In this document: positions 31,550 to 49,459 of the stretch, one piece after another | How positions within the stretch are numbered: the stretch's first letter is position 1 | Layout: each line of letters opens with the position of its first letter | Assembly (NCBI GenBank): GCA_003598085.1 | Contig: QZKU01000019.1 | Location: 13,394-77,393 of the forward strand | DNA from: Candidatus Abyssobacteria bacterium SURF_5 | GTDB lineage: Bacteria; Abyssobacteria; SURF-5 | Direction: 5' to 3' | Length of the DNA: 64,000 nucleotides | Made by a program: the position numbers and the translations under genes | Notes under the pieces: model-generated | The model's input: the letters and a program-made list of their open reading frames with translations, nothing else | What the model was told of the DNA's origin: nothing | Databases searched by the model: none

Positions 31550-31996
31550 TCATACGTATGGAGGTCTGCCTTTTGGCCACTGCGTATCGACCTGTTGAGA
31601 ATACAGTTCGGACATGATTTTGACGAGTTCGGCGTTCTTCATGAAGATGCGCATATCGCCGCGTATCCTGATTGCTCCGCGCAAGCCGGCTTCGATGAAA
31701 TCACGCATGCCGGCAGCTATTTCTTCGAAAACGGTGGCCGGACCGCTGAAACGGAAGTCAAGTCCCTTGCCGTCCATTGTCTCGGAAAGTTCTTTGTATT
31801 CCTGGCATTTTCCCTTATCGAACAGGATAAAGAAATATTTCGCCTGTCCGTTGCCGATATACGGTGATTTTCCGTCCCCCGCAATTTCAACGCAAATGCG
31901 CCACTGGCCCTGAGGCGCGCGAGCGGAGATGTCTTCGCGGCTGTTCACCAGCGCCTTCAGCGTGTCGTACCAGTCTATTGAATAGATATCAGCCAT
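31550..31996 (-). CDS. SCP2 sterol-carrier-domain protein
   Basis: 148 residues from ATG 31996 (MADIYSIDWYDTLKALVN), preceded by a G-rich site; an in-frame upstream extension would run into the neighbouring gene and is rejected. A single SCP2 fold covers about 20-135: WRICVEIAGDGKSPYIGNG, LDFRFSGPATVFEEIAAG and GAIRIRGDMRIFMKNA give the typical lipid-tunnel pattern ending in the swap helix. SCP2 proteins bind lipids, sterols or acyl-CoA. Begins 19 bp after the FAD enzyme; last gene of the GntR-headed operon. Confidence 0.8.
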   Translation of the reverse strand: MADIYSIDWYDTLKALVNSREDISARAPQGQWRICVEIAGDGKSPYIGNGQAKYFFILFDKGKCQEYKELSETMDGKGLDFRFSGPATVFEEIAAGMRDFIEAGLRGAIRIRGDMRIFMKNAELVKIMSELYSQQVDTQWPKGRPPYV

Positions 31997-33632: not shown

Positions 33633-33672
33633 TGTTCAGGTATCCTCCCTGCTCATCTCCGGGGAGCCAAGG

Positions 33673-34161
33673 TCATCTTAGCGCGAGAAGCGCCGCCATC
33701 CCCAATATTACTGCGGCCCCCGCTGCCGCGAGCATCCATCCGACGGGCCATGTCGCAGGCTTGTCGTCAGCCCTCATTTCTGCGGGCAGGCTCATGAATC
33801 TGGCCACGCGAAACGCAAAAAGCGGGTGTCTCCATGCGGATTCGATTTTGAGCTTCCCGCTCATTATCTTTTCAATTGCTTTTCCTGATCCGCTTGAGGC
33901 GGCTTCGGCAATATCAAAAATGCCTCCCCGCATGGACAAGTCCGCATTCGGAAAGCATCCGCTGGATATCTCTATGCTGTCGCCCTTGAATTGAACAGTC
34001 ACACCGATGTTGCCTTCCGATGCTTCAATAGCCATCTTTCCTCGTATTCTGCAGGCTTGCCTGCGCTTGTATTCACAATCGCCCAGGTTCTGCTCAAAGT
34101 ACTGGAACAACATCATCGCCAGCCCGCTTGGCTCGCCATTTCCTTCAAGACTCACCTTCAC
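33673..34161 (-). CDS. SCP2-like protein with C-terminal membrane anchor
   Basis: 162 residues. The first 120 form an SCP2-like domain (GKMAIEASEGNIGVTVQFKG, CFPNADLSMRGGIFDIAEAA, then IMSGKLKIESAWRHP). A single hydrophobic helix ends the protein (WMLAAAGAAVILGMAALLAL), so the carrier domain is tethered to the membrane. It starts 21 bp after paralogue A and ends 40 bp before paralogue B. Together with the soluble SCP2 gene at 31550 it makes a carrier for each oxidoreductase. Confidence 0.78.
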   Translation of the reverse strand: MKVSLEGNGEPSGLAMMLFQYFEQNLGDCEYKRRQACRIRGKMAIEASEGNIGVTVQFKGDSIEISSGCFPNADLSMRGGIFDIAEAASSGSGKAIEKIMSGKLKIESAWRHPLFAFRVARFMSLPAEMRADDKPATWPVGWMLAAAGAAVILGMAALLALR

Positions 34162-34182
34162 GCCATCGACCTCTACAGGGAG

Positions 34183-35775
34183 TTAGACCTTCTTCCACCA
34201 TTTTTCCAGGCCATAATCGTCGGCTATCACCTGGAGTGCATTATATGCGGGAGCGAAAGTGATATACCCGTGCGGATGCTGGGTGGAGCCGCACATGTAC
34301 AATCCCTTGATCGGGGTTCTGTATTGGGAAAGGGCAGGGAAGGGGCGCTGTGAAAGCAGGTTGTCGGGCGCAATGGCGCCAAGCATCCAGTCGCCGCGAA
34401 CCATGTTCACCAGCCTGTCTGAGATCTCCTTGGGCGTATAGGGAACATATTCGATGATCGCGTTGCGATCCAGATTCGGCGCATATGCGCGCCACTTCGC
34501 TATGCACCGCTCGGCGTAATCCGTTTTCACTTCGTCCCAGGCATTCTCATTCCCGTCAATCTGAAACGGAGCGAACTGCCTGATGAGACCGGTGTACTTT
34601 CCGGTAGGCGCGTCGGTGGGATCAAAAAGTGAATTGACGGCGCAGTTGAGCTTTGGGTCCGCCAGCTTTCCATTCCTGACCAGCGCGAAGTCCTTATTCA
34701 GATCCGACAGCGATTCATATCCCACATTCATTACCCATGCCTGGTTGATGTCGGGATCGAAGGCGGCGGCCGTATACTGTGGCGGCTCGTTCATTGCAAG
34801 GTGGACGCTGAACAGCGACCAGTCCTTGTGCCTGCAATTCTTCACCTTCTCGATGAAGAGTTTGTCCGTGATTTCGCTGTCGAGAAATTTCAGAAACGTC
34901 TGCTCGAGATCCACGTTACTCGCGACCAGCTTTTTCGCTTCGATTTGCGAGCCATCCAGCAACTTCACGCCGGCAGCCCGGCCGTCCCTGGTCAGAATCT
35001 TTTCGACAGGTGCGGCCGGATGCACGATGCCGCCATCCGCAAGCAGGGTCCACCAGAGGGCGTGCGCCAGTTTATGAGATCCACCGATGCAACATTGCCA
35101 ATTGTCGATCTTGCCGGCGAGCAAAGGAAAAGAAATCGCGAGTCCGCGCACGTCGTTACTGTATGCGCATACGGCCGCATGAAATGCCAGCATGGTCTTG
35201 ATCTTTTCGTTTTCGAAATGCTGGTTCAGGAAATCATTGATGCTCAGGCTGCGCAGGCGCGCCCGCAGGAACTCGGATTTATCTTCGACTCCCCAGACAG
35301 TGAGCGCATTTGTAATTTCGTTCAGGTCGATGGGCGGCGCGAACATGAGGGTGCCGACCAGGAGGTCGAGGAATCCTTTCACTTCCCCGTAAAGCCGGAG
35401 CCAGGTGTCGGCGTCCTGTTCCGAAAAGCGAGCCATTGACTGGTACGTCTTGTTCATATCCGTATGGATAGTAAGTGAGGTTCCGTCCCGAAAGACGCTT
35501 CCCATTTGGACCGGGGGGTGGGCATAGGTGAGGCCATGCTCGAAGAGTCTCAGGTCGTCATACACCGGCGAAACACCGACAAGCGTATGATAATTTGAAT
35601 GGACATTATGCAGAAAGCCGGGCCGCGTGAGCTCCTCTGTACAGAGGCCCCCGCCTTCCTCGTGCCTCCTCTCAAAGATGCCGACGCTCCATCCGCACTT
35701 CGCGAGATAACACCCGAGCGCCATGCCATTATGGCCCGCTCCGATGATCACCGCGTCAAAACTTGCATCAGCCAT
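34183..35775 (-). CDS. Phytoene-dehydrogenase-like FAD oxidoreductase (COG1233), paralogue A
   Basis: 530 residues. VIIGAGHNGMALGCYLAKCG, FERRHEEGGGLCTEE and PGFLHNVHSNYHTL match the COG1233 family; the C-terminal GLYMCGSTQHPHGYITFAPA is the second FAD block. Paralogous over its whole length to 32016-33632. The first enzyme gene after the regulator at 35855, 79 bp away. Hydrophobic long-chain substrates are expected for the family; a carotenoid role is not supported by any neighbouring crtB or crtE. Confidence 0.87.
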   Translation of the reverse strand: MADASFDAVIIGAGHNGMALGCYLAKCGWSVGIFERRHEEGGGLCTEELTRPGFLHNVHSNYHTLVGVSPVYDDLRLFEHGLTYAHPPVQMGSVFRDGTSLTIHTDMNKTYQSMARFSEQDADTWLRLYGEVKGFLDLLVGTLMFAPPIDLNEITNALTVWGVEDKSEFLRARLRSLSINDFLNQHFENEKIKTMLAFHAAVCAYSNDVRGLAISFPLLAGKIDNWQCCIGGSHKLAHALWWTLLADGGIVHPAAPVEKILTRDGRAAGVKLLDGSQIEAKKLVASNVDLEQTFLKFLDSEITDKLFIEKVKNCRHKDWSLFSVHLAMNEPPQYTAAAFDPDINQAWVMNVGYESLSDLNKDFALVRNGKLADPKLNCAVNSLFDPTDAPTGKYTGLIRQFAPFQIDGNENAWDEVKTDYAERCIAKWRAYAPNLDRNAIIEYVPYTPKEISDRLVNMVRGDWMLGAIAPDNLLSQRPFPALSQYRTPIKGLYMCGSTQHPHGYITFAPAYNALQVIADDYGLEKWWKKV

Positions 35776-36834: not shown

Positions 36835-38022
36835 TCAGCCGCTCTTGATGCCGAGGATATCCATTACGTCGAGTTCTGAGAGCGGTACGGGCGAAAACAT
36901 CATACCTGGTTCGATGACGCACGCAGACACTAATTCCGAAGGCTTTCCTTCGAATTGTCCCATAACATCCTCAAGTCTTGGCAGGCCGATGGTGGATATC
37001 ATATTTTCTATTGCATCAATTGCTGCATCGGCAACTGCCTCCTCGCCGGCATAGTCTTCGGGCGCCAGCCCAAAGATGCAAGCGATCTTTCGGAACTTGC
37101 CTGATTGAGCGCTTTTCAGCTTCCTCAGCCCCTGCGGGAGAACTGCGCTGCAGGCGGCGCCATGCGGCACATGACACCTTGCGCCAAGAACATGTCCGAT
37201 CGCATGAGCGAAATGAGGCATCGCATGGCTGATTGCCATGCCCGCCATGGTTGCGGCCACGCTCATGCCGGCTCGGGCCTCGTCGTCCTCTCCGTCTTTC
37301 ACGGCTCTCGGGAGGAATTTGGCCGCTAATTCCATTGCATAGAGAGAGAGGGAGTCGCTGATAGGACTGGATAGGGTTGACAGATAGGCTTCAATTGAAT
37401 GACAGAATGCATCTATCCCCGTGACAGCGGTCAGATCCGGCGGCATCGAGTAGGTGAGCAGGGGATCGACGAGCGCGACGTTTGGACACATGTTGGCGCT
37501 TATCACCACCCGTTTGGAGGAGTCATCGCCATGGGTGAATACCGCCATAGAGGTTACCTCGCTGCCAGTGCCGGCCGTGGTGGGAATACATAGAAGCGGC
37601 GGAAGATTCGGTGGCGCTTGGCGCTCCTGCGTCAAATCGTATTCCCGGATTGACCCGCCTCCCCCGATGATGCAACCGGCCATCTTGGCGGTATCGATCG
37701 AGCTGCCTCCGCCAATGGCAATAATGCCATTACATTCATTCTCCCGGTAAGCATTGACGCATGCGCTCACTGTTCTTTCGGGCACTTCCGGCTCGACATT
37801 GGCCCACACCGCGTGTTTGATCTTCGCGCCCTCCAGGGTTTCTACGGCTGTGGCCAATCCTTCTGATTCCGCCGTGATCGGGCCAGTGACAATCAAAGCT
37901 TTCTCTATCTCAAGATCGCGCGCGGCGGCGCCCGTTGAGGTTACGACACCGTTGTTCAAAAATAGTTTTGTTTGCATCACAAAATTTAATTCATACCGTG
38001 CATCACCCGCAAAGTAAGACAT
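36835..38022 (-). CDS. Iron-containing alcohol dehydrogenase
   Basis: 395 residues from ATG 38022, placed by AAGGAGG 10 bp upstream and by family length; the open frame before it is non-coding. IIAIGGGSSIDTAKM binds the dinucleotide, and CIPTTAGTGSEVTSMAVF is the family signature. Metal ligands are the Asp in ALVDP and His in DAFCHSIEAY, HAIGHVLGARCHVPHG. Such enzymes interconvert alcohols and aldehydes with NAD(P). It ends beyond the palindrome of the GntR regulator and is divergent from the cytochrome operon, so it could act on a product of either cluster. Confidence 0.92.
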   Translation of the reverse strand: MSYFAGDARYELNFVMQTKLFLNNGVVTSTGAAARDLEIEKALIVTGPITAESEGLATAVETLEGAKIKHAVWANVEPEVPERTVSACVNAYRENECNGIIAIGGGSSIDTAKMAGCIIGGGGSIREYDLTQERQAPPNLPPLLCIPTTAGTGSEVTSMAVFTHGDDSSKRVVISANMCPNVALVDPLLTYSMPPDLTAVTGIDAFCHSIEAYLSTLSSPISDSLSLYAMELAAKFLPRAVKDGEDDEARAGMSVAATMAGMAISHAMPHFAHAIGHVLGARCHVPHGAACSAVLPQGLRKLKSAQSGKFRKIACIFGLAPEDYAGEEAVADAAIDAIENMISTIGLPRLEDVMGQFEGKPSELVSACVIEPGMMFSPVPLSELDVMDILGIKSG

Positions 38023-38292
38023 GAGGCAATCCTCCTTCGGTTTGGAAAACCAGGAAATTTTGATTCGTATATCGCAGGGTGTCTCCCAGCTTCTCAGACC
38101 CGGGCAGAGTTGCGGGCTCTTTGTAGGATTTTCATTTGACGACCATATAAATTTTACACAGCGGGACATAGGCTTTACCCTTTCCTCCGAGCCCGGCATC
38201 ATCCAAAGCCCTTGGTTCCAAGTAGTTTCCTGACGATGCCGCGCCTGCGTGCTCTTGATGGCATACATATTGAATATCAAGAATGAAGCCAT

Positions 38293-39330
38293 ATGCAAAG
38301 ACGAACCCAAAGAGAGTCTTTATTGAGGGAATCAGCATACCCGGGAAGAGCGACTCTGGCTTTATTGCTCTCATTCGGCGTCTTTCTCATTGGGGGATGC
38401 GCCTCCGAACATTTCCGGATGCTGACCAGGGTGGAGCAGCATTATCCCTCCGCTTCCCAATGCGGCGAGTGTCACATCGAGATCTACAAAGAGTGGACGG
38501 AGTCGCTCCATTCCAAGAGTTACTCCAGTGACAGCTTCCGTCTCGCGACGAATGATCATTCCTTTGAGGACTGTCTTGGTTGTCATACGCCCGTTTCCAT
38601 TCATGCCGCGGGCGTACCAGCCGCAAGAAATGCCATCCGCGAAGAGGGCGTGACCTGTATTTCATGCCATTTCAATCAGGGAACACTTATCGGTCCCATC
38701 GAACCTACGGCCACGGTCGTGCCGCACGAGGTCGGCGTCGAAAAAGAATTCTTCACGACCAGTTCGCTCTGCGGGACATGCCATCAGGGAACATATGAAG
38801 AGTGGCGCAACGCTGCAATCGAGAACAAGAAAAATTGTCAGGACTGTCACATGCCGAAGGTGAAGAGAAAGGTCACCCAGGCTGACAGCTTAACATCGAA
38901 GATCTTGGTGAGCATGGAGGAGGAGCACATGCTCAGGCGGCACACGTTCAGTTTCGAAAAAATGGAAGCGCCCGAAGAAGCCGTTTCTTTGGATGTCAGG
39001 TGGGAATGCGAAGAGCAGGGGGGCTTCGCCGAAGTGAACGTGATCAATCTTCTTCCCCACTTCATCCCGACCGGCGATTTCGGCTTTCGGAAAGCGACAT
39101 TGTCCTTAACAGTGAAGTCGGACGACGGGAAGACGCTGCTCGAGCAGGCGGTGGACATTTATAAGGAAACGCAGACTGCTCTGAGGCCTCTGGAGCGACG
39201 CGCATTCCGATTTTCACTACCTCTTGAGGCAAGCCGGCTGGAAATTGTATTGAAGAGAGAAGGTCAAGATGGAGCACATCGATTTATCATCGATCAGCAC
39301 CTGTTCGTCAAGGGCGAGACGAACTGGTAA
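38293..39330 (+). CDS. Pentaheme c-type cytochrome lipoprotein
   Basis: 345 residues. A signal peptide ends in the lipobox LIGGC. Five CxxCH haem sites: CGECH, CLGCH, CISCH, CGTCH and CQDCH, all within the first 200 residues, in a spacing like cytochrome c554/NrfA-type proteins. The C-terminal 140 residues lack haem motifs and look like a beta-sandwich (VRWECEEQGGFAEVNVINLL). It should sit outside the inner membrane, lipid-anchored, and pass electrons. It opens a nine-gene run and overlaps the next gene by 62 bp. No strong ribosome site is visible at ATG 38293. Confidence 0.88.
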   Translation: MQRRTQRESLLRESAYPGRATLALLLSFGVFLIGGCASEHFRMLTRVEQHYPSASQCGECHIEIYKEWTESLHSKSYSSDSFRLATNDHSFEDCLGCHTPVSIHAAGVPAARNAIREEGVTCISCHFNQGTLIGPIEPTATVVPHEVGVEKEFFTTSSLCGTCHQGTYEEWRNAAIENKKNCQDCHMPKVKRKVTQADSLTSKILVSMEEEHMLRRHTFSFEKMEAPEEAVSLDVRWECEEQGGFAEVNVINLLPHFIPTGDFGFRKATLSLTVKSDDGKTLLEQAVDIYKETQTALRPLERRAFRFSLPLEASRLEIVLKREGQDGAHRFIIDQHLFVKGETNW

Positions 39331-39967
39331 AATTCGCCGTTTTTCTGCGACCGAACGCCTGTTGCACTGGTCGTTCGCCCTCCCGCAAATCGTCCTGATG
39401 GTGACAGGGGGGTTGCTGCTATTCTCCGCCTCACGCTCGGGTGAAAGCGCATCCAAATTGAACCTGACGACGCTCCACAGGATCGCGGCCGTATGTTATA
39501 TCCTCGCGCCTTTCCTGGTCTTCATGAGTGGGGACGCGAAAATCCTCCTCAGAAACATCAAGCTGGCATTCAGTTGGGACCGCAACGATTTCAGGTGGTT
39601 CTATGGCTCGTTCATGAAACTCTTCATCCCTTCTACAACCATGCCCGCCGTTGCAAAATTTAACGCCGGACAGAAGCTCAACATGTTGATTGTAATGAGC
39701 ATGGGCGTTGGTTTTGTTGTTTCGGGACTTATCATGTGGTTATCCGACGGCCTGTTGCTGGCGTGGTTCATCCATGCCTCGTTGTTCCCGTTTGCGGTTC
39801 TCACGGTATTGGGTCACATGTACATGGCTGTTCTGCATCGATCCACGCGCCCCTCGTTTTGGGCAATCATTCATGGGGACGTCGACAGAGAATGGGCTGA
39901 TCATCATCATCCTCGATGGGCAGGAACAGTGGAAGAACCTTGCACAGATGAAGATCCTCAATCATAA
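39269..39967 (+). CDS. Membrane cytochrome b (FdnI/b561-type)
   Basis: 232 residues with four transmembrane helices (about 33-53, 65-85, 128-150 and 155-178). Histidines suited to haem b ligation occur in RLLHWSFALP, TTLHRIA, FIHASLF and VLGHMYMAVLH, the arrangement of formate dehydrogenase gamma and Ni/Fe-hydrogenase b subunits. The histidine-rich tail WADHHHPRW is normal for the family. It should exchange electrons between the quinone pool and the flanking cytochromes. ATG 39269 is preceded by GAGAAGG; no later start would keep helix 1, so the 62-bp overlap is real. Confidence 0.9.
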   Translation: MEHIDLSSISTCSSRARRTGKIRRFSATERLLHWSFALPQIVLMVTGGLLLFSASRSGESASKLNLTTLHRIAAVCYILAPFLVFMSGDAKILLRNIKLAFSWDRNDFRWFYGSFMKLFIPSTTMPAVAKFNAGQKLNMLIVMSMGVGFVVSGLIMWLSDGLLLAWFIHASLFPFAVLTVLGHMYMAVLHRSTRPSFWAIIHGDVDREWADHHHPRWAGTVEEPCTDEDPQS

Positions 39968-41573
39968 AAATCTCGCCGCTGTGGCGCGTGCAATCATGCT
40001 GGTTGTTCCGCTTGTCCTCGGGACGGAGGCAAAGGCGGATTTGCCTTCCTTCGCCAGGTTTCTCTCTCCCGGACAGCTCACAAAATCCCACGCTCATGAA
40101 AAGAAGTTAACGGATTGTTACGCGTGCCATACGCTCACCCGCGGAATAGACGACTCTCGGTGCCTGGATTGCCACAAGGACGTCAAGGAGAGGCTTTCGA
40201 GAAGGGACGGCTATCACGGCAAACTCCAGGGAAGCTGCACAGAATGCCATACCGATCACAAAGGGTTGGAGTCGGATATCATCAATGACTTTGACCCACA
40301 AGCTTTCAACCACAGGCTGTCGAATTATCCTTTAACAGGCAAACACGCCGAAATCCATTGTGATAAATGTCACGCCAAACAGCACCCGCACGACGAACCG
40401 CACATTCATTATATCGGACTCAAAGCAACCAAATGCACGAGCTGTCATAAGAATCCACACCCGCAAGCGATTAGTATCGATTGTGAAAAATGTCATTCAA
40501 CCGACGGCTGGTCCGGGCCGGCGCTGAAGTACACACACAGCCGCGATTCCCAATATAAATTACTGGGAAAACATCAGGAGGCATCATGCGAAAAATGCCA
40601 TCGTGGTCCCGAGCCGGCAACTCAATTCATTGTTCCGAACACCGCTTGTGTGGATTGTCACGCGGACAAACATAACGACCAGCTCTCAAAAAGCTGCGAA
40701 AAATGTCACGACGAAACGGGGTGGACCGGCAGAAGCACGAATTACTCCCATGCACTCGACTCCAATTATAAGCTGGTGGGAAAACATCAGGAATTGAGTT
40801 GCGACAAGTGCCACAAACCCGGCGAACCAATCGCAAAACTTGCGGCCGCTAAATTCAAGGATATTGGGACCGATTGTATTAACTGTCATACGGACGAGCA
40901 CCAGGGACAACTGTCAACACAATGCCGGAACTGTCACGGCGAATTCGGATGGAAGGGCGCTTTCCTCACATTCAACCATGACGAGCAATCAAATTTCAAG
41001 TTGGACGCCATCCACAACTCCGTTGGCTGCGCGGATTGTCATGAACACGAGACATACAAGCCTCTCAAAGCCGCTTGTGTCGATTGCCACGCCGAGTATG
41101 CGGAAATAATGGCCGGCTCCTCCGGCATGACTGCCGGCAAGGCCCTGCCGGACCCACATTGGAAACGCATTCGCTGTGACCAGTGTCATGACAGTCGCGA
41201 AGAAGGACAGCGAATCGTCAGCTATCAGGATAGGTGCGTCCAATGTCACAACCCTCGATATGGGCTTTTACTGCTCGACTGGATGAAGGCTTGGTTTGAT
41301 AGCCGGGTTGAGACACACGCGCTTTTTCAACAAATCCAGGAACAAGGATTAACAATGCCCGCAGAGTTTCAACAATTTCCCGAGAGGATCAAGCAAGTGG
41401 AAAAAATTGGGGCTCACAATTTCCTGTTGGCGCCGCTCGAATGGAAAGCTTTAAAAGACGACCTTGAGCGTGAAGCCTCAAAAAGCCTGACGAGTAAAGC
41501 GAACAACAGTGACGCCCGGCAGTTGCTGGAAACGGCGTCAGAGAATTCAGCGGCGGAAGGATCGAAAAAATGA
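39948..41573 (+). CDS. 16-haem c-type cytochrome
   Basis: 541 residues from ATG 39948, which gives a clean signal peptide (LAAVARAIMLVVPLVLGTEA). I count 16 CxxCH motifs between about residues 40 and 430. Four imperfect modules repeat the pattern [FY]xH-x4-[YF]xLxGKH-x4-CxxCH, as in YKLLGKHQEASCEKCH and YKLVGKHQELSCDKCH, showing growth by duplication. The last 110 residues are haem-free and helical. It overlaps the cytochrome b gene by 20 bp and the next gene by 4 bp. Probably a periplasmic electron wire or store; direction of flow is unknown. Confidence 0.93.
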   Translation: MKILNHKNLAAVARAIMLVVPLVLGTEAKADLPSFARFLSPGQLTKSHAHEKKLTDCYACHTLTRGIDDSRCLDCHKDVKERLSRRDGYHGKLQGSCTECHTDHKGLESDIINDFDPQAFNHRLSNYPLTGKHAEIHCDKCHAKQHPHDEPHIHYIGLKATKCTSCHKNPHPQAISIDCEKCHSTDGWSGPALKYTHSRDSQYKLLGKHQEASCEKCHRGPEPATQFIVPNTACVDCHADKHNDQLSKSCEKCHDETGWTGRSTNYSHALDSNYKLVGKHQELSCDKCHKPGEPIAKLAAAKFKDIGTDCINCHTDEHQGQLSTQCRNCHGEFGWKGAFLTFNHDEQSNFKLDAIHNSVGCADCHEHETYKPLKAACVDCHAEYAEIMAGSSGMTAGKALPDPHWKRIRCDQCHDSREEGQRIVSYQDRCVQCHNPRYGLLLLDWMKAWFDSRVETHALFQQIQEQGLTMPAEFQQFPERIKQVEKIGAHNFLLAPLEWKALKDDLEREASKSLTSKANNSDARQLLETASENSAAEGSKK

Positions 41574-42709
41574 GAGGAATGTCCATGCTCCAAAGGACCT
41601 CAGACAAAGTTGTGGGAAACATCTTGGATGGCATGCAGACTCATCTGAGAAATATACTCTCGCTGCATTTTCATCCCGAACATGGGAGCCCGTACTGGCT
41701 CAGACGACAGACAGAACTCGGGATTGATGTTGCAAGTGAAGTGAAAGAAGTGGACGATCTTTGGAAGCTGGGGTTGATGGATGACGAGTCACTGCGAGGC
41801 CTGTCAGTGGAAGAGTTTGTTCCTCGGGCATTACTAAAGGAAAAGCAAACGTTTGTTCTTGGTGACAGCGCAGGCTCAACCGGCGCGCCTAAGCTTACCG
41901 CCTACTCAGAAGAGGAGTTCAGCGGCGCGTTTATAGAGCCTTTTTCCCGTGCCGCGAATGCGATGCGATTTCCACGCGAGGAAAACTGGCTGTATATAGG
42001 TCCTTCCGGCCCACACATAATCGGAAAGGCCGCGCGCGCCTGCGCCAATCGACTGAAAAGCATGGACCCATTTTCGGTGGATTTCGATGCGCGATGGGCT
42101 AAGAAAATGAAATCCGGCTCAATGGGGAGTCGGAGATACCTTGAGCACGTAATCGAGCAGGCTCTGGGAATCCTGGACAGCCAGGACGTTGGAGTGCTTT
42201 TTACAACACCTTCCGTCTTGGCGGCTCTGAGCGAGGGGATGACCAAATCTCAGCGCCTGAAAATCAGAGGCGTGCATTATGGAGGAGTCGCTCTGACCCA
42301 TGAGAGGTACGATGCTTTTCGGCAAGACATGTTCCCCAACGCGGTTCATATTTCAGGCTACGGCAATACCCTGTTTGGAATGTGTCCGGAACTGTTTCCC
42401 GTCGAGCCTCGGCCAATCGACTACTATCCACACGGCAATCGACTTGTCATTCGCCTGATCCCCCTGTGCGAGGGAGCCATCCCTGACGAGCGAGTGCTCC
42501 AAACAAGGGTCGCCTACGGCGAGCGAGGAAGGATCATGTTTCACCGACTGGATTCCAGCGGACTGATCGTCAACATGTGCGAACGCGATAGCGCCGAGCG
42601 CATCCCGCCCCCTGAGAGAGTTGAACATCTGGGTTTTGTGCAAGACGGGTTCCGTTGCCCGGAGCCGTTGCCGGTCATGAGGAATCGGTTGAAGACCGGA
42701 CTGTATTGA
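41570..42709 (+). CDS. Adenylate-forming protein, PaaK/LuxE-like
   Basis: 379 residues. DSAGSTGAPKLTAYSEEEF is the nucleotide loop of the ANL superfamily, phenylacetate-CoA ligase/LuxE branch. IRGVHYGGVALTHERYDAF and ISGYGNTLFGM correspond to the adenine-binding and YGxTE-type motifs. It is shorter than true PaaK (about 430) and similar in length to LuxE acyl-protein synthetase, so it may activate a fatty or aryl acid as acyl-AMP and pass it to a protein or CoA. Coupled to the 16-haem gene by ATGA, an unusual partner for such an enzyme. Confidence 0.8.
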   Translation: MRGMSMLQRTSDKVVGNILDGMQTHLRNILSLHFHPEHGSPYWLRRQTELGIDVASEVKEVDDLWKLGLMDDESLRGLSVEEFVPRALLKEKQTFVLGDSAGSTGAPKLTAYSEEEFSGAFIEPFSRAANAMRFPREENWLYIGPSGPHIIGKAARACANRLKSMDPFSVDFDARWAKKMKSGSMGSRRYLEHVIEQALGILDSQDVGVLFTTPSVLAALSEGMTKSQRLKIRGVHYGGVALTHERYDAFRQDMFPNAVHISGYGNTLFGMCPELFPVEPRPIDYYPHGNRLVIRLIPLCEGAIPDERVLQTRVAYGERGRIMFHRLDSSGLIVNMCERDSAERIPPPERVEHLGFVQDGFRCPEPLPVMRNRLKTGLY

Positions 42710-42743
42710 GGGATATTTGCGGTAAGGAAAGCAGGTGCTCTTG

Positions 42744-44777
42744 ATGAATCGAAGAATGACAAAGCCGGAACTGCTTGCTCCTGCAGGTACGTTGCAGACC
42801 TTGAAAGAGGTAACAAGCGCGGGGGCGGACGCCGTGTATTGCGGCGGCAAGAATTTCAACATGCGTCTTCACCGCTCTGACTTCAACCTCTCAGCAGAGG
42901 AACTGGCTGAAGCAGTCAAGTGGTGTCACGAGCGCGACAAACGGATATATGTAACCGTCAACAGTCTTCTCGGGGACGAGGAACTGAGCCGGCTTTCCCG
43001 CTACCTCGAATTTCTTGAAAGCATCGGCGTCGACGCAATCATTTTGCAGGACCTCGGGGTTCTCCATCTGTCCCGCGAATTAGGTTTGAAGCTCGAAAAG
43101 CATGCCAGCACGATGATGAACGTGCATAGCAGCGCCATGGCGACTTCCCTGGGCGAATTGGGGATTACGCGCATCATCACGTCGCGGGATATCACGCTTG
43201 CTCAAGTGCAGTCGATGTGGCGGGAAACCGGCCTCGAATTCGAATACTTTATCCATGGCGATATGTGCACGTCTCAGAGCGGGCAGTGTTTCACCAGCGG
43301 CATCCTCTTCGGAGAAAGCAGCAACAGGGGGCGGTGCCTCAAGCCTTGTCGCTGGCCATATGACCTTGTCGACGCGCAGAACGGCGACTCTGTCAAAAAC
43401 GGCCGCCCGGGACCATATCTGCTCGCTCGAAACGACATGTGCATGTTTCAAAATATACCGGAGATGGTGAATGCCGGAATATGCTCATTCAAAATCGAGG
43501 GCAGGATGCGTCCGTCTGAATTTCTGAAACCGATTGTGCAAGCCTATCGCGAGGAGATTGACAGGTATTGGGAAGCTCCCTGTTCATACCGCAAGAACGG
43601 AGACGCGTACAGCGACCTTCAAAACAACCGGGTCCGCGATTTTTCGTCCTGTTATGCATTTGGCAATCCCGGATCGTCTTCCATCGGATTTTCCGGCAAG
43701 CGGGAGCCGCGCCTCTTCAGCCATGCTCCCGGGATTCGGTTCCAGAACGCAAAGGGAATGGCCGACCTTGCAGCATCGGCTTCCCGCAATAGTGATCAAC
43801 AGCACGCCTGCAATCCGGTTCCTCGCCTGGCAGTGCGGGCAGGCTCTCCCGAGGCTGCGTATGGCGCGCTGGAAGCGGGTGCGGACCTCGTTTATGTCGC
43901 AGGAGAAGTCTTCTTCGAGGAGGGAACGCGATGGACCGGCGGCTCGATCGCGGAATTCGCCTCGTTCGCCCGGGCATCGGGAAGGAACGCCGGAATCGCC
44001 ACGCCGAGAATCAGCACGGAGCGAGAATTGTGGGAACTCGAGCGCCTGTTCCAGGGTCTACCAATTGATCTAATCGATTCCGTCCTGGCCACAAACCTGG
44101 GAGCGCTTCGGCTCGCCAATACATATTTTCCGGGGCAGGTTGTCGCCGATTTCAATTTTTCGATTCTTAATATCGGAAGCATCAAGCTCATGAGGAGCTT
44201 GAACGTACAACGGTTCACTCCTGCGGCGGAAGCCTCCCTCGAGGAAGCTCTGTCTCTCAGTCGGCAGCGCATTCTGCCCGAAGAGCTTGTTGTTCACGGA
44301 CCGGTATTGGGAGCCGTTCTGGAGCATTGCCTGGCTGCTGCGAACATCGATTATGTTCCCCCAAACGGCAATTGCCCCATGCCCTGTCGCAGTAGACAGC
44401 AGTATGCGTTGAAAGACGAGCAGGGACAGATATATCCACTGATGATCGACCAGTATTGCCGAAATCACCTGCTGCTTCCTTTTGATATCTGTCTGCTTCC
44501 CCTCTTGAGGAGTGTTCTAAAGGCAGGAGTTCATGTTCTTAGAATTGAGGGGCAATATTACGAGGCGGGGCATCTCAAGAGCATCGTTGAACTGTATCGA
44601 CGGGAAGTAGACCGGATTGCCGGAAGCAACGACTGTCCTTCGCTCCGCGAGAACGATTACGAAAAGTTGATCCGGATCAGCCCGCGACCGTTCAGCATGG
44701 GGGCTTATATGCACGGAGTGTTGGGGAGTCTTGGCCACTTGATGAAGGAGGAAATATCGTGCACAGAGATACGATAG
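42744..44777 (+). CDS. U32-family peptidase/collagenase-like protein
   Basis: 677 residues from ATG 42744 (AGGTG site; in-frame GTG 42735 is weaker). KPELLAPAGTLQTLKEVTSA opens the U32 barrel. IHGDMCTSQSGQCFTSG and GRCLKPCRWPYDL carry the cysteines usual in U32 proteins such as RlhA. A second half from about 365 repeats the barrel theme (LAVRAGSPEAAYGALEAGAD) and has another cysteine set (NCPMPCRSRQQY). U32 members act in RNA hydroxylation, ubiquinone synthesis or proteolysis, often with an Fe-S cluster; which applies here is open. Overlaps the aminotransferase gene by 19 bp. Confidence 0.87.
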   Translation: MNRRMTKPELLAPAGTLQTLKEVTSAGADAVYCGGKNFNMRLHRSDFNLSAEELAEAVKWCHERDKRIYVTVNSLLGDEELSRLSRYLEFLESIGVDAIILQDLGVLHLSRELGLKLEKHASTMMNVHSSAMATSLGELGITRIITSRDITLAQVQSMWRETGLEFEYFIHGDMCTSQSGQCFTSGILFGESSNRGRCLKPCRWPYDLVDAQNGDSVKNGRPGPYLLARNDMCMFQNIPEMVNAGICSFKIEGRMRPSEFLKPIVQAYREEIDRYWEAPCSYRKNGDAYSDLQNNRVRDFSSCYAFGNPGSSSIGFSGKREPRLFSHAPGIRFQNAKGMADLAASASRNSDQQHACNPVPRLAVRAGSPEAAYGALEAGADLVYVAGEVFFEEGTRWTGGSIAEFASFARASGRNAGIATPRISTERELWELERLFQGLPIDLIDSVLATNLGALRLANTYFPGQVVADFNFSILNIGSIKLMRSLNVQRFTPAAEASLEEALSLSRQRILPEELVVHGPVLGAVLEHCLAAANIDYVPPNGNCPMPCRSRQQYALKDEQGQIYPLMIDQYCRNHLLLPFDICLLPLLRSVLKAGVHVLRIEGQYYEAGHLKSIVELYRREVDRIAGSNDCPSLRENDYEKLIRISPRPFSMGAYMHGVLGSLGHLMKEEISCTEIR

Positions 44778-46066
44778 TCGCCGGTATCGGTCCGAGTGAA
44801 ATAGTTCGAAAGAAGAAAGAGTATCTCATCCCCTGCGTCTATCATTTCTACAAGGAGCCAATGCAACTTGTCCGGGGCAAGGGTCAGTACCTGTTCGACC
44901 ACACGGGAAAGCAGTATCTCGACTGCTATTCGGGTGTGTCAGTCGTCAACGCCGGCCACTGCCATCCCTATATTGTGGACCGCATCTGCGAACAGGTGAG
45001 GACGCTGCAGCACACCACAACGATCTATCTTACGCAGCCGATCGTAGACCTCGCGGAACGGCTGGCTGCGATCATGCCGGGTGACATCAAGAAGAGTTTC
45101 TTTTGCGCAAGCGGCTCGGAAGCCAATGAAGGCGCCGCGTTGTTGGCGCAGATTTATACCGGTCGGAGCGAAATGCTGGCGTTGCGCCACGGCCTCCACG
45201 GGCGGACGAAGCTCACGATGAGCCTCACCGGCCTGTCATTCTGGCGTACGGATCCTGCGCCGGTAGGCGGCATTACTCATGTGGCCGGCCCGTACTGTTA
45301 TCGCTGTCCGCTGGGTCTTTCGGTTGAATCATGCGAGATCGAGTGTGCGCTGGAGGTCAAGGCGGCCATAACGACGAGCACTTCCGGCCGCGTGGCGGCA
45401 TTCTTTGCTGAGCCTATTCAAGGCAACGGCGGCATAATCACTCCTCCGCCGGGTTATTTCGAGCGAGTGAGGGAAATACTCGATCATTATGAAATCCTTT
45501 TTGTTTCCGACGAGGTGCAAACCGGTTATGGTCGAACGGGTAAGATGTTCGGCTGCCAGCATTACGATATCATGCCCGACATCGTCACCTCCGCGAAGGC
45601 GTTGGCTAATGGAACCCCCATCGGCGCGTTTTCGACGACCGATTCCATAGCGGCTTGCTTTACACGTCCCAGCGCATCAACCCTTGGCGGAAATCCCGTC
45701 TCCAGCACTGCAGCCCTCGCCACGCTGGACGTAATTGAGGACGAAGGATTGGTATCAAGAGCGGAATTTCTGGGAGGGGTACTGAAACAAAGGTTCCTGG
45801 AACTGCAGGACCGGCACCGCTTGATAGGCGATGTCCGAGGCAAGGGATTAATGCTCGGGATCGAGCTTGTTGGGGAGGAAAAGGCTCCGGCCGCTGAAGA
45901 TACCGATCATATTCTGGAATTACTGAAAAACGCCGGTGTGCTTGCCGGCAAAACAGGCGCCGCAAGAAACGTGCTCACTTTCCAACCTCCGCTCGTGATC
46001 GAGGAAGAAGACATCGATCGGTTGACTGAGGCACTGGAAAGCGTCTTCTCGTTTGTGGAACCTTGA
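44759..46066 (+). CDS. Class III aminotransferase
   Basis: 435 residues, GTG start behind AAGGAGG. GSEANEGAALLA is the PLP phosphate region, VSDEVQTGYGRTG contains Asp251, and TSAKALANG holds the Schiff-base Lys280. The pattern is close to alanine-glyoxylate aminotransferase 2 and 4-aminobutyrate types, which move an omega-amino or alanine amine to a keto acid. A Cys-rich insert (CYRCPLGLSVESCEIEC, about 180-196) is unusual and could bind metal. Placement between a U32 protein and an SCP2 protein gives no direct substrate hint. Confidence 0.9.
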   Translation: MHRDTIVAGIGPSEIVRKKKEYLIPCVYHFYKEPMQLVRGKGQYLFDHTGKQYLDCYSGVSVVNAGHCHPYIVDRICEQVRTLQHTTTIYLTQPIVDLAERLAAIMPGDIKKSFFCASGSEANEGAALLAQIYTGRSEMLALRHGLHGRTKLTMSLTGLSFWRTDPAPVGGITHVAGPYCYRCPLGLSVESCEIECALEVKAAITTSTSGRVAAFFAEPIQGNGGIITPPPGYFERVREILDHYEILFVSDEVQTGYGRTGKMFGCQHYDIMPDIVTSAKALANGTPIGAFSTTDSIAACFTRPSASTLGGNPVSSTAALATLDVIEDEGLVSRAEFLGGVLKQRFLELQDRHRLIGDVRGKGLMLGIELVGEEKAPAAEDTDHILELLKNAGVLAGKTGAARNVLTFQPPLVIEEEDIDRLTEALESVFSFVEP

Positions 46067-46080
46067 AAGGAGAGATCGAA

Positions 46081-46509
46081 ATGGATTCTGTACACGAAAG
46101 GACTTCATCCGACACAATCTCAGCCGGGCTGCCCGATACGGTTACCGACAGCCGCGAATACTTCAATGAATTCCTGCCGCAATTGATCCGGCAAAAGGAG
46201 GACATCACGATCGGCAATACGAACTTTACATGCATGTTCCGCATCGAGGGAGAGAAGGGAGGCAACTGGCTCTTCGAAATCAAGAAAGGCAAGATCAAGC
46301 CCCCGGTTCCCTGCGGCGAAGTCGAAGCGCCCTGTGTCATCACGATGGACAACGCCACGCTGATGCAGATCATAACCGCAAAGGTGCAGCCCGCTCATGC
46401 ATTCTTCCGGGGGCACGTCAAGGTCAAGGGCGGAATGCAAATGCTGATAAAGTTGTCCACTCTCCTTCCGATTTATTTTCGCAAACATACTTTACGGCCC
46501 AAAAGGTAG
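46081..46509 (+). CDS. SCP2 sterol-carrier-domain protein (third in window)
   Basis: 142 residues from ATG 46081 (AAAGGAGAGATCGAA upstream; the TTG 18 bp earlier is rejected). Residues about 35-140 form an SCP2 domain: FMCMFR-type start TNFTCMFRIEGEKGGNWLFE, APCVITMDNATLMQIITAK, HAFFRGHVKVKGGMQMLIKL. It lies 14 bp from the aminotransferase and 15 bp from the RND gene, so it is likely to carry a lipid for the exporter or the adjacent enzymes. It shares its domain with the two SCP2 genes at 31550 and 33673. Confidence 0.85.
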   Translation: MDSVHERTSSDTISAGLPDTVTDSREYFNEFLPQLIRQKEDITIGNTNFTCMFRIEGEKGGNWLFEIKKGKIKPPVPCGEVEAPCVITMDNATLMQIITAKVQPAHAFFRGHVKVKGGMQMLIKLSTLLPIYFRKHTLRPKR

Positions 46510-46524
46510 GAACGGTCTCCGCTC

Positions 46525-48771
46525 ATGTTCGTTCTTTACAGCCGCCTCATTACTTGTCACTCCCGCAAAATCCTTCGGGCGCTGACATGCATTACCATTG
46601 TCATGGGAATTTTCGTTTTCAGGCTTGAGACGAATAATTCGATTGAGACGTGGTTGCTCGATGACGACCCGCGGCGGCTTTCCTACGAGAAATTTGTGGA
46701 GATGTTTGGTACCGAAGAGTTCGTGCTGGTGGTCTACTCGGATACCGACCTGTTTTCGAGAGAATCGTTCCAGTTGAATTATCAGATTTCCGAGAAAGTC
46801 GAAAGCATCGAAGGGGTTGCTCGGGTTTGGAGTCTCTCCGAAGTTTATCGGAACATCGTATCGCGGCTGCCCGTCGGGGCAGCGCTGCCGCTGCATCGAT
46901 TCAAAGAGGGAGTCCTGGGACATCCGCTGTTTACGGGAAACTTGATCTCCGACGACGGCGTGACAACCGCGATCGTGGCGGTGCTGACGCCCGACGGGAC
47001 GAAGGACCGAAACGGGACGGTGCGCGCGATACGACAAGCGGCGGCAGAGGTTTGTCCGGACAAGGATCTGCGGTTTGCCGGGCCGCCCGTCATGAGCGCC
47101 GAACTCGACCGCATTGCGCGACGCGACCCGCGTGTCTTCACTCCATTGGTGGTGATCATGGCGGCGGGTATCCTGCTCGCCATGTTTCATCGCCCGGCAG
47201 GCGTCAGGATCCCTCTTGCGGTCGCGGGCATGAGCATTGTCTGGTCGCTCGGAATCTTTTCGCTGATAAGCGGCACAATGAACATGGTGCTCGCCGTCAT
47301 GCCGCCGTTGGTTCTCGTGGCCGCCGTCGGAGATTCCATTCACCTGCTTTGCCGCTACCGGCATCATATCCGAAGCAAACCGCCCGAAAGAGCAGTGGTT
47401 GAGGCGGTAAGAGATGTATGGAGGCCGTGCCTGATGACAAGCCTCACAACTGCGGTCGGCTTCGGGTCGCTTGCTGTAAGCCATTTCTCGCCGGTCAGAA
47501 GCTTTGGCCTGGTTTCGATGCTCGGGATCGCATTCGCCTTTGTCATAACTATGTTGCTGGCTCCCGCTTCAATAGCGTTTAAGCGCGGGGCCGGGTTATC
47601 CGCCGCCTCCGAGGATGTTAGTCCTCTGAATAAGATTCTGTCCTTTATAAAGACGGTAAACGCCAGGCGGCCGGTATGGATTCTGTCCGCTTTCGCCTTG
47701 TTGAGCATCGTCGGCCTCCTGGGTATAATTCGGCTGAATGTGGAGGCAAATACTCTAAAGTTTTTTCCCGCCGACGGCGAAATCAGGCGGACATACAAGT
47801 TCATTGAAGAAAACCTGACGGGACTCAGTCCATTCGAGATATTGTTGCGGGGGGACGAACTGGGGGAACCCGCAACGCTGGCTGCGATCGATCGCATCCA
47901 AGCCTATCTTGCCGAACAACCTCACATCACCCATTCCTTTTCCGTCCGCTCCTTGCAGGCTGGTTTTGCGACCCCTCACGCACTTGCTCCCGCATCGGAA
48001 GGTCTGCGGATCGCGGCGCTCTTTAAAGACCTTGAGGATTCTTTCATCAATCGGGAGCGCAGCGCGACTCACATCTCAGGCCGCGGCCTCACAATGAATT
48101 CCATCCTTTACGAGCGCGCCATGGACGACATTCAGTCGTTCGTGAACGCGGTCTTGCCCGAGGGGATCACCGCAGAGTTGACAGGGGTCGTCCCGCTGAT
48201 CGCTTCAATGGACAGATACCTCCTCGTGACCTTCATGAAGAGTTTTGCAATGGCCTTGCTGATTATCGGCGTGATCATGTCATTAAACTTCCGGTCGATC
48301 CGCTTCGGACTGCTCAGCATGATACCGAATGCGATCCCCATCGTTGCCGTTCTCGGCCTCATGGGGTTCTTGGCGATCGACCTCAGTCCGGCGACGGTGA
48401 CAGTCGCCTCCGTTTCCCTCGGCCTTGTTGTGGACGACACTATTCATTACATGCATCGATACTTCCGTTATCTGGAGAACGGAAGTGCGCCTTCGGCGGC
48501 AGCCGCCATGGCCACAGCCACGGTGGGCGCCCCCGCGATTTACACTACATTGGTATTGGGGGCCGGCTTCATTGTGATGGTTGTTTCCGACTTTGGGCCG
48601 ACCAGGCTTTTCGGGCTTCTTTCGGTTTTCAGCATAATGCTCGCCCTGCTATGCGATCTGTTTCTGCTGCCCGTACTGCTGGTGAGGTTTACGCCGGTGA
48701 CGCCTCTGGAGCCGAAACCCGCTCTGGTAGTCAGCACGCATGCGTTGGAGGAATATCAGGATGCTTCTTGA
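46525..48771 (+). CDS. RND-superfamily (MMPL/HAE3-type) lipid exporter
   Basis: 748 residues with about 12 transmembrane helices in two six-helix halves. Each half has a large outer loop (about 40-200 and 410-540) after the first helix. LVAAVGDSIHLLCRYRHH and LGLVVDDTIHYMHRYFRYLE are the paired helix-4 signatures with the acidic residue used for proton relay. The size and domain plan match HAE3/MMPL/HpnN proteins, which move hopanoids, sterols or other lipids to the outer membrane. The downstream start lies inside its 3' end (11-bp overlap). Confidence 0.9.
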   Translation: MFVLYSRLITCHSRKILRALTCITIVMGIFVFRLETNNSIETWLLDDDPRRLSYEKFVEMFGTEEFVLVVYSDTDLFSRESFQLNYQISEKVESIEGVARVWSLSEVYRNIVSRLPVGAALPLHRFKEGVLGHPLFTGNLISDDGVTTAIVAVLTPDGTKDRNGTVRAIRQAAAEVCPDKDLRFAGPPVMSAELDRIARRDPRVFTPLVVIMAAGILLAMFHRPAGVRIPLAVAGMSIVWSLGIFSLISGTMNMVLAVMPPLVLVAAVGDSIHLLCRYRHHIRSKPPERAVVEAVRDVWRPCLMTSLTTAVGFGSLAVSHFSPVRSFGLVSMLGIAFAFVITMLLAPASIAFKRGAGLSAASEDVSPLNKILSFIKTVNARRPVWILSAFALLSIVGLLGIIRLNVEANTLKFFPADGEIRRTYKFIEENLTGLSPFEILLRGDELGEPATLAAIDRIQAYLAEQPHITHSFSVRSLQAGFATPHALAPASEGLRIAALFKDLEDSFINRERSATHISGRGLTMNSILYERAMDDIQSFVNAVLPEGITAELTGVVPLIASMDRYLLVTFMKSFAMALLIIGVIMSLNFRSIRFGLLSMIPNAIPIVAVLGLMGFLAIDLSPATVTVASVSLGLVVDDTIHYMHRYFRYLENGSAPSAAAAMATATVGAPAIYTTLVLGAGFIVMVVSDFGPTRLFGLLSVFSIMLALLCDLFLLPVLLVRFTPVTPLEPKPALVVSTHALEEYQDAS

Positions 48772-49459
48772 GGAAGGCGTTACTTTCATGAGGGATTGGT
48801 TTCATTTGCGAGGCAGACTTTATTACGATGAGAGCCTCATTCCCACACGGGCCGTACTCCTCTGTTCTCCGCACCCCCATCTGGGAGGGGACATGGAGAA
48901 CAACGTGATTGTCCATATTGCGCGCACCCTCAGTGCGCACGGATGCGCAGTCATGACTTTCGATTATGCGGGAGTCGGCAACAGCGACGGCCCCTGGACA
49001 GATGAAATGGAGCAATTTGAGTTCTGGGAGTCGATCATGGATTCCGAGGACTACGGAATTGTGGTCCCCGATGCCGAGGCGGCCTTCGATCACCTGCTGA
49101 AGTGTCTGCCGTCACAGCCGCACGTTGTTTTGGTCGGCGGATATTCGTTCGGGGCTGTCACGGCTCTCCGCGTTGCCTGTTCACGAAAGGTGGACGGAGC
49201 CTTCGGGATATCGCCGCCGGTCGGCGAGTATGACCTGAGTTTCGTTGAGTCAATCGAGTGCCCGAAATACTTCATTTCATCCGATCAGGACCTTGCGTGC
49301 GATATAGGTGAAATAAAAGCGTTCTGCGAGCGGATCAATTCGAGCGAGAGGCTTTCGATCATACCCGGTGGGGATCATTTCTTCGTGGGACAGGAATTCC
49401 GCCTCTGTTCGGTTCTCATGGATCATCTGAAGCCGCATTTTGGCCTCAGCCCCGCTTAG
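48761..49459 (+). CDS. Alpha/beta hydrolase
   Basis: 232 residues from ATG 48761, placed by GGAGG 9 bp upstream. LLCSPHPHLGGDMENNV is the oxyanion region, VLVGGYSFGAVTAL the nucleophile elbow (GxSxG). FISSDQDLAC provides the acid and IPGGDHFFVGQE the histidine, completing the triad. The HPHxGG opening is typical of small YsgA/DLH-like hydrolases acting on esters. Last gene of the nine-gene run; probably cleaves an acyl ester or lipid related to the upstream enzymes. Its end faces the convergent regulator gene 20 bp away. Confidence 0.87.
   Translation: MLLEEGVTFMRDWFHLRGRLYYDESLIPTRAVLLCSPHPHLGGDMENNVIVHIARTLSAHGCAVMTFDYAGVGNSDGPWTDEMEQFEFWESIMDSEDYGIVVPDAEAAFDHLLKCLPSQPHVVLVGGYSFGAVTALRVACSRKVDGAFGISPPVGEYDLSFVESIECPKYFISSDQDLACDIGEIKAFCERINSSERLSIIPGGDHFFVGQEFRLCSVLMDHLKPHFGLSPA

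Follow-up and report, generated by a model that had tools for sequence, protein, structure and literature searches.

We analysed a 64,000-nucleotide stretch of DNA from Candidatus Abyssobacteria bacterium SURF_5 (hereafter, the window) that carries nine closely packed genes for multihaem cytochromes, a double-domain U32 protein, a class III aminotransferase (AT3) and lipid-type proteins. On balance, we favour a reading in which these genes make a tailored (modified) membrane quinone without oxygen and supply cytochromes as its redox outlet; that they take some part in quinone biosynthesis or tailoring is probable. Two results carry this reading: the gene set has a counterpart in the order of 'Ca. 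Scalindua', and its U32 and AT3 genes recur as a pair in other lineages. Linkage and common origin can be read from these gene comparisons, whereas the chemistry we infer. Two clades, one of U32 proteins and one of aminotransferases, lie outside the named NCBIfam models, and the analysis gives each of them a likely role.

A nine-gene operon with a counterpart in another phylum

All nine co-directional open reading frames on the forward strand at 38293-49459 were confirmed (Table 1). With our preferred starts, the eight junctions measure, in order, -62, -20, -4, +25, -19, -4, +15 and -32 base pairs (bp), figures that depend on the starts chosen; that of the third gene is best set at 39948 (MKILNHK..., signal-peptide-like). 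The original prediction, made from the letters of the window, had described a single same-strand operon with overlaps or gaps of at most 34 bp; the operon and its tight packing stand, and the largest gap is 25 rather than 34 bp. Its haem counts (five CXXCH motifs in the first gene, exactly 16 in the third) were reproduced, and Pfam bore out its naming of the cytochrome b, U32, class III aminotransferase, SCP2, RND/MMPL and hydrolase proteins. The fourth gene, which it had called PaaK/LuxE-like, does encode an enzyme of adenylating type, but EhpF-like is the better name: the protein matches EhpF, a phenazine-biosynthesis enzyme, across its full length (residues 25-373; phmmer against the PDB, 8e-29), its match to Pfam AMP-binding is weak, and its homologues on plasmids are annotated as 'arylcarboxylate reductase' or as phenazine biosynthesis proteins. 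For the cytochrome b, the nearest NCBIfam model is the gamma subunit of formate dehydrogenase (FdhI; 4e-23, under the cut-off). As had been proposed, the first three genes form a plausible electron path from quinone or quinol to the periplasm.

The SCP2 protein aligned with E. coli UbiT at an hhalign probability of 86% over 46 columns and had no NCBIfam match. The permease scored 107.9 bits against MMPL (cut-off 20.5) and 215.1 bits against TIGR00921, below the cut-off of 351.9. The hopanoid transporter HpnN was rejected as its identity (TIGR03480, 84.2 bits against a cut-off of 751.85).

A scan of genome contigs with the adenylating enzyme alone returned no relative, and the other two of the three genomes that represent the window's phylum here have neither this enzyme nor a full-length U32 protein of the same type. 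In a scan of named genomes, one hit was a 'Ca. Scalindua' contig that held AT3, the 5-haem lipoprotein, a multihaem protein and the hydrolase. AT3 was present in 36 of the 62 genomes of this order (60-91% identical to the Scalindua AT3). Across 30 neighbourhoods, U32 was found in 29, the EhpF-like gene in 27, MMPL in 25, the 5-haem gene (on the same strand and within 9.5 kb) and cytochrome b6 in 24 each, SCP2 in 20, NAD_binding_4 in 19 and the hydrolase in 17, some of these counts being lowered by contig ends. The order runs from a thioester-reductase-like NAD_binding_4 protein through SCP2, MMPL, EhpF-like, U32 and AT3 to cytochrome b6, a petD-type subunit, the 5-haem lipoprotein, a 10-haem NapC-like protein, an 11- or 5-haem protein and the hydrolase. 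Thus, the cytochromes and lipid-type genes, whose co-occurrence elsewhere the original prediction had taken as its test, do stand together in these genomes. We call the order anammox after the Scalindua record; a few members, such as G642 (7.6 Mb), may not be anammox organisms.

Identities between the window and this order were 30-38% for the 5-haem protein, 21-32% for the 16-haem protein (to multihaem proteins), 42-54% for the EhpF-like enzyme, 61-68% for AT3 and 34-39% for the hydrolase, and trees grouped the two (SH-aLRT 90 for U32 and 97 for AT3). From these comparisons, the window operon and the anammox-order operon are a nearly complete match of common origin. The arrangement goes beyond chance, since another phylum has 30 neighbourhoods in which most of these genes recur on a common strand, and the nine genes almost certainly form an operon with ancestry shared across lineages. 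Cytochrome b6 and the petD-type subunit stand in place of the window's FdhI-type cytochrome b; with two unrelated families of cytochrome b in otherwise shared operons, selection appears to act on electron transfer linked to the quinone. A PAP2 phosphatase had been considered for the gene after AT3, which proved to be cytochrome b6. The Scalindua contig (L098:7662-8414) encodes only the C-terminal half of U32, fused to the start of a metallophosphoesterase, and is probably misassembled.

Table 1. Genes of the operon, with positions in the window.
Predicted product	Position	Strand	Basis and remarks
Pentahaem c-type lipoprotein	38293..39330	+	345 amino acids, 5 CXXCH, lipobox LIGGC at residue 36; Cytochrome_C554 5e-10
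Cytochrome b, FdhI/b561 type	39269..39967	+	Pfam Ni_hydr_CYTB 4.5e-15; proposed quinol oxidase/quinone reductase membrane subunit
16-haem c-type cytochrome	39948..41573	+	541 amino acids; exactly 16 CXXCH counted; Cytochrome_C7 1e-15
EhpF-like aryl-carboxylate adenylating enzyme (ANL superfamily), predicted	41570..42709	+	phmmer to PDB EhpF 3l2k/3hgu 8e-29
Double-domain U32 protein, UbiU-UbiV-like arrangement	42735..44777	+	Pfam Peptidase_U32 2e-97, two stretches; proposed O2-independent hydroxylase
Class III pyridoxal-phosphate (PLP) aminotransferase (AT3)	44759..46066	+	Aminotran_3 1e-100
SCP2 lipid-carrier protein, UbiT-like in type	46063..46509	+	Pfam SCP2 6.6e-14
MMPL/HAE3-type RND permease	46525..48771	+	Pfam MMPL 7e-31; TIGR00921 1e-63, below cut-off
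Alpha/beta-hydrolase	48740..49459	+	Hydrolase_4 1e-10

Divergent from the operon lies an iron-containing alcohol dehydrogenase gene (window 36835-38310, reverse strand), whose nearest models, GbsB (choline dehydrogenase) and ErcA, scored below their cut-offs. At 32016-35775 and 31619-31846, both on the reverse strand, are two similar FAD/NAD(P)-binding oxidoreductase genes and, near the end of one gene, a second match to SCP2, weak at 23 bits.

The U32-AT3 pair and quinone genes

In E. coli, U32 proteins hydroxylate ubiquinone precursors (UbiU-UbiV) or RNA (RlhA, TrhP). The U32 protein of the window is a chain of 680 amino acids in which Pfam U32 matches two stretches. Its first set of cysteines (Cys 178/185/201/205; CX6CX15CX3C) was invariant in all 66 aligned sequences, and the second (Cys 532/547/551/575), which occurs all-or-none, was present in the window, in 27 of 27 anammox-order sequences and in 20 of 38 others; the spacing agrees with the published U32 pattern, CX6CX15CX3/4C. 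An AlphaFold model (pLDDT 82, pTM 0.86) has two TIM-like halves, and a fold search with it returned the U32 protein Mk0906 (Z 16.8; root mean square deviation 3.4 over 213 residues) and otherwise general TIM-barrel matches, a result at the level of predicted structure that fits the assignment and says nothing on the substrate. The U32 proteins of the pair form a clade of their own (SH-aLRT 100), apart from RlhA and TrhP, which rules out membership of these RNA hydroxylases; the TrhP model scored 177 bits against a cut-off of 534. The protein also lies outside the UbiU and UbiV subfamilies of NCBIfam (159.9 bits against 440, and 40 against 275). AT3 scored 337.6 bits against Aminotran_3 (cut-off 30.5), and the lysine of its AKAL motif, K280, was invariant in the alignment; it falls in no named NCBIfam subfamily, the best being PRK08117 (363.9 bits against 574) and none of the best 25 models reaching its cut-off.

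When 290 genomes were searched with the U32 protein, a single further full-length relative adjoined an AT3 homologue, in a Paenibacillus-type genome (G053); the U32 proteins of G215, G271 and G146 had no adjoining AT3. In G053 the pair lies between EcfT and a UbiA prenyltransferase, within a flavin-based extracellular-electron-transfer locus that has EetA (NusG_II), EetB, Ecf genes, a polyprenyl synthase, Ndh2 and a PplA-like protein. Searching 348 genomes of its phylum with the G053 AT3 gave 29 carriers, and wherever the Firmicutes contigs permitted a check, the double U32 gene lay directly upstream of AT3 (one contig ended early). Named genomes with the two genes adjacent include Sporomusa acidovorans, Selenomonas ruminantium, Enterococcus sp., Haloplasma, Ca. 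Hydrogenedentota and many Paenibacillus and Saccharibacillus strains, the last two with the order EetA-EetB-Ecf-U32-AT3-UbiA together with polyprenyl synthase, Ndh2 and a PplA-like protein. AT3 of the window is 47-66% identical to those of the Firmicutes; lower-ranked class III aminotransferases (L133, L136 onward, below about 48% identity) had no U32 detected alongside in the checked loci and were used as the outgroup. Neither MMPL nor the adenylating enzyme was found beside the pair in the Firmicutes quinone-gene loci or the Paenibacillus extracellular-electron-transfer loci. On this gene-neighbourhood evidence, we conclude that U32-AT3 is a conserved two-gene module travelling with quinone genes or electron-transfer cytochromes. 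A literature search returned no description of the pair; most subscription journals lay outside its scope, so an earlier description is possible.

In one genome (G595), a single gene run holds UbiD (TIGR03701, menaquinone decarboxylase, above cut-off), UbiA, UbiX, U32 and AT3; Enterococcus has UbiD and UbiA close by upstream of the pair, Haloplasma has UbiD, UbiA and UbiX downstream on the opposite strand, and in family f249 an MqnP-like UbiA directly precedes it. UbiA occurred in all 37 pair-bearing genomes checked; of seven genomes of the same phylum that lack the pair, four had it. PF02621 (MqnA/MqnD) was absent from 12 of the 29 pair-bearing Firmicutes, and MenD was above cut-off in none of the 29. 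Several of those without PF02621 have UbiA, UbiD and/or UbiX beside an ATP-binding cassette (ABC) importer, a gene arrangement that suggests salvage of a quinone precursor. Three Firmicutes genomes (G333, G314 and G429) have no Mqn or Men head genes, and in them UbiA, UbiD and/or UbiX lie beside a substrate-binding protein/ABC/permease importer (loci L297, L298 and L303). A 505-residue fusion of UbiX to a TrpX-like substrate-binding protein is encoded directly upstream of the pair at L083:12345-13862, and TrpX-like proteins with no obvious signal peptide recur beside it (e.g. L100:6883-7752).

Elsewhere in the host genome are mqnE-mqnA-mqnC (G000:C140, L254:338-3355; mqnE and mqnC above cut-off, with the PF02621 protein MqnA between them) and an MqnP-like ubiA paired with ubiX (G000:C144, L180:9884-11358). 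MqnD was not recognisable in this 98.5% complete genome, which gave one PF02621 match. The Sporomusa genome examined has mqnE-A-C, the U32-AT3 pair and one PF02621 protein only, next to MqnC/MqnE.

A proposed tailored quinone and rival readings

In the route that we propose, the host would build a menaquinone-type ring by the futalosine route, and the double U32 protein, whose cysteines form two sets of [4Fe-4S] type, would hydroxylate this ring without O2 as UbiU-UbiV do, the SCP2 protein carrying the lipid in the manner of UbiT; by analogy with these proteins, we lean towards hydroxylation as the U32 reaction. AT3 would then swap the introduced oxygen for an amino group through a keto tautomer. 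Alternatively or in addition, the EhpF-like enzyme and a thioester reductase could turn a ring carboxylate into an aldehyde for AT3 to aminate. The PLP aminotransferase, as a constant partner, suggests oxygen-to-amino replacement, and we put forward amination of the quinone by AT3 as a tentative step. Its product would be a naphthoquinone-based aminoquinone, a rhodoquinone analogue of lower potential; an amino group does lower quinone potential (+110 mV for ubiquinone versus -63 mV for rhodoquinone; PMC9814641), and for rhodoquinone, transamination of a quinone carbonyl was under consideration until RquA proved to use S-adenosylmethionine (SAM) (PMC9814641). MMPL and the hydrolase may move or process the lipid as accessories, and the cytochrome b, 5-haem lipoprotein and 16-haem protein would oxidise the quinol and send electrons outward. 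In its most specific form, which we consider possible and rather doubtful, U32 and AT3 would make a previously unknown amino-menaquinone, an O2-independently hydroxylated and aminated naphthoquinone acting as a dedicated lower-potential carrier that feeds cytochrome- or flavin-based electron export; its users, equally conjecturally, would be anammox-order bacteria, Sporomusa, Paenibacillus and the window's lineage.

Several points weigh against a tailored quinone. UbiA is missing from the window operon, which no NAD_binding_4 reductase adjoins; three anammox-order loci (L238, L245 and L249) are without multihaem cytochromes, and coupling to cytochromes is therefore not obligatory; the Selenomonadaceae have the pair without quinone neighbour genes; and Paenibacillus, Selenomonas and Enterococcus have lost the second U32 cysteine set in its entirety, so that one U32 half is needed less than the other. 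Related genomes account for most of the linkage counts, which do not stand for independent events. UbiUVT works without any aminotransferase, and we know of no PLP enzyme that aminates a respiratory quinone. RquA makes rhodoquinone with SAM, not PLP (PMC9814641), and the most abundant quinone reported in Kuenenia is menaquinone-7 (PMC12954380).

The original prediction had the operon make or modify and export an envelope lipid or lipid-like metabolite with its redox state linked to the cytochromes. Taken as a lipid of fatty-acid type, this has some support: SCP2, MMPL, the adenylating enzyme and the hydrolase would indeed suit acyl activation, carriage and export. The adenylating enzyme is EhpF-like, however, and not a fatty-acyl ligase, none of the nine genes encodes an acyltransferase, ketoacyl synthase or glycosyltransferase, and in the Firmicutes the core pair goes with quinone genes and not, where looked for, with MMPL or the adenylating enzyme. 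Because U32-AT3 is linked to quinone genes and extracellular-electron-transfer loci, the respiratory quinone itself is likelier to be the 'lipid', with MMPL an accessory, and we now find an envelope lipid quite improbable. Another possibility is a small soluble aromatic electron shuttle (e.g. an ACNQ-type amino-naphthoquinone) made from a quinone precursor by the EhpF-like enzyme, U32 and AT3, exported by MMPL and reduced outside by the cytochromes. The closeness of the adenylating enzyme to EhpF and the annotations of its plasmid relatives would fit, as would MMPL in 25 of the 30 Scalindua-order loci and the Paenibacillus pair inside its extracellular-electron-transfer locus; descriptions exist, for other bacteria, of exogenous quinones and of a small electron shuttle (PMC10746273, PMC6687433). 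We nevertheless hold a shuttle to be unlikely: SCP2 and the neighbouring genes for a prenyltransferase, UbiD and UbiX suggest a product that is prenylated and stays in the membrane, and next to the pairs in Firmicutes no exporter turned up.

U32-AT3 might instead supply a missing step of ordinary menaquinone synthesis, for example in place of MqnD, and tailor nothing. The single PF02621 protein of the host and of Sporomusa stands next to MqnC/MqnE, so MqnD seems absent from both; mqnD is also reported missing in Mitsuokella and Megamonas (PMC4746308), and UbiD-UbiA-UbiX neighbours would suit such a role. The simple rule that U32-AT3 replaces MqnD fails, however, in Paenibacillus and several anammox-order genomes, which have the pair and two PF02621 proteins, and the 12 pair-bearing Firmicutes lacking PF02621, with no MenD above cut-off in any of the 29, also argue against it. 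The MqnD reaction is not known to need hydroxylation or amination, and we regard this alternative as decidedly unlikely. A place for the pair in RNA or amino-acid metabolism, with incidental quinone and cytochrome neighbours, would agree with the hydroxylation of rRNA and tRNA by other U32 proteins (RlhA, TrhP) and with pairs that have no quinone genes; in family f247 the pair is near a methionyl-tRNA synthetase. It is very improbable given the separate clade of the pair's U32 and the repeated linkage to quinone genes (Paenibacillaceae, Enterococcus, Haloplasma, G595, f249) and to cytochromes (the anammox order and the window).

A tailored quinone would bear on Sporomusa, which is reported to hold ubiquinone and no menaquinone (PMC9430772, PMC8578096). 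Ubiquinone is too positive for methylene-tetrahydrofolate reduction in this organism (PMC9430772), and a genome survey (PMC13386864) finds ubiquinone unsupported outside Pseudomonadota, save for one Desulfobacterota class, and allows for undiscovered quinones in Bacillota that seem to be without quinone pathways. If true, the amino-menaquinone reading would explain why Sporomusa, which has futalosine genes, U32-AT3 and no recognised ubiquinone pathway, is credited with ubiquinone and no menaquinone; we conjecture that a modified naphthoquinone was mistaken for ubiquinone. The methylene-tetrahydrofolate potential in Sporomusa and the undiscovered Bacillota quinones would both become testable points. 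Since quinone potential decides which reactions can pay, the redox chains of anammox-order bacteria, of acetogens such as Sporomusa and of Paenibacillus with the flavin-based export locus would be redrawn. With the gene set in the anammox order and its two-gene core in many Firmicutes, a single undescribed carrier may be common to several kinds of anaerobic respiration.

Comparison with known systems

Among the nearest known systems is the O2-independent ubiquinone hydroxylation system of E. coli, which consists of a UbiU-UbiV heterodimer, each partner binding a [4Fe-4S], and of the SCP2 protein UbiT (PMC6747719). Both systems have paired U32 units with four-cysteine [4Fe-4S] motifs, an SCP2 protein and linkage to quinone genes; here, however, the two U32 domains share one chain and a clade of their own, a class III aminotransferase is a constant partner, cytochromes belong to the operon, and the organisms, from other phyla, are of futalosine type or may salvage precursors. 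Futalosine tail genes (MqnP, UbiD/MqnL, UbiX) lie with U32-AT3 in some Firmicutes, and the window's host has mqnE-A-C, ubiA and ubiX, whereas the pathway as described (PMC4746308, PMC13386864) is not known to include a U32 protein or an aminotransferase. Rhodoquinone synthesis by RquA resembles the proposed route in its type of product, an aminoquinone of lower potential, but RquA is a PLP-free homologue of SAM-dependent methyltransferases that acts on ubiquinone (PMC9814641). Anammox Rieske/cytochrome b complexes (Kuste4569-4574, Kustd1480-1485; PMC12954380), like the anammox-order operon, combine cytochrome b6/petD-type subunits with multihaem cytochromes; the operon with U32-AT3 showed no recognisable Rieske gene, and the cytochrome b of the window is of another family. 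The Listeria-type flavin-based extracellular-electron-transfer locus (eetA, eetB, ecf, dmkA, ndh2, pplA) has Paenibacillus and Saccharibacillus versions that hold U32-AT3 next to the quinone prenyltransferase. In Listeria itself we know of no such pair, and the window differs from these loci in having multihaem cytochromes in place of flavoproteins.

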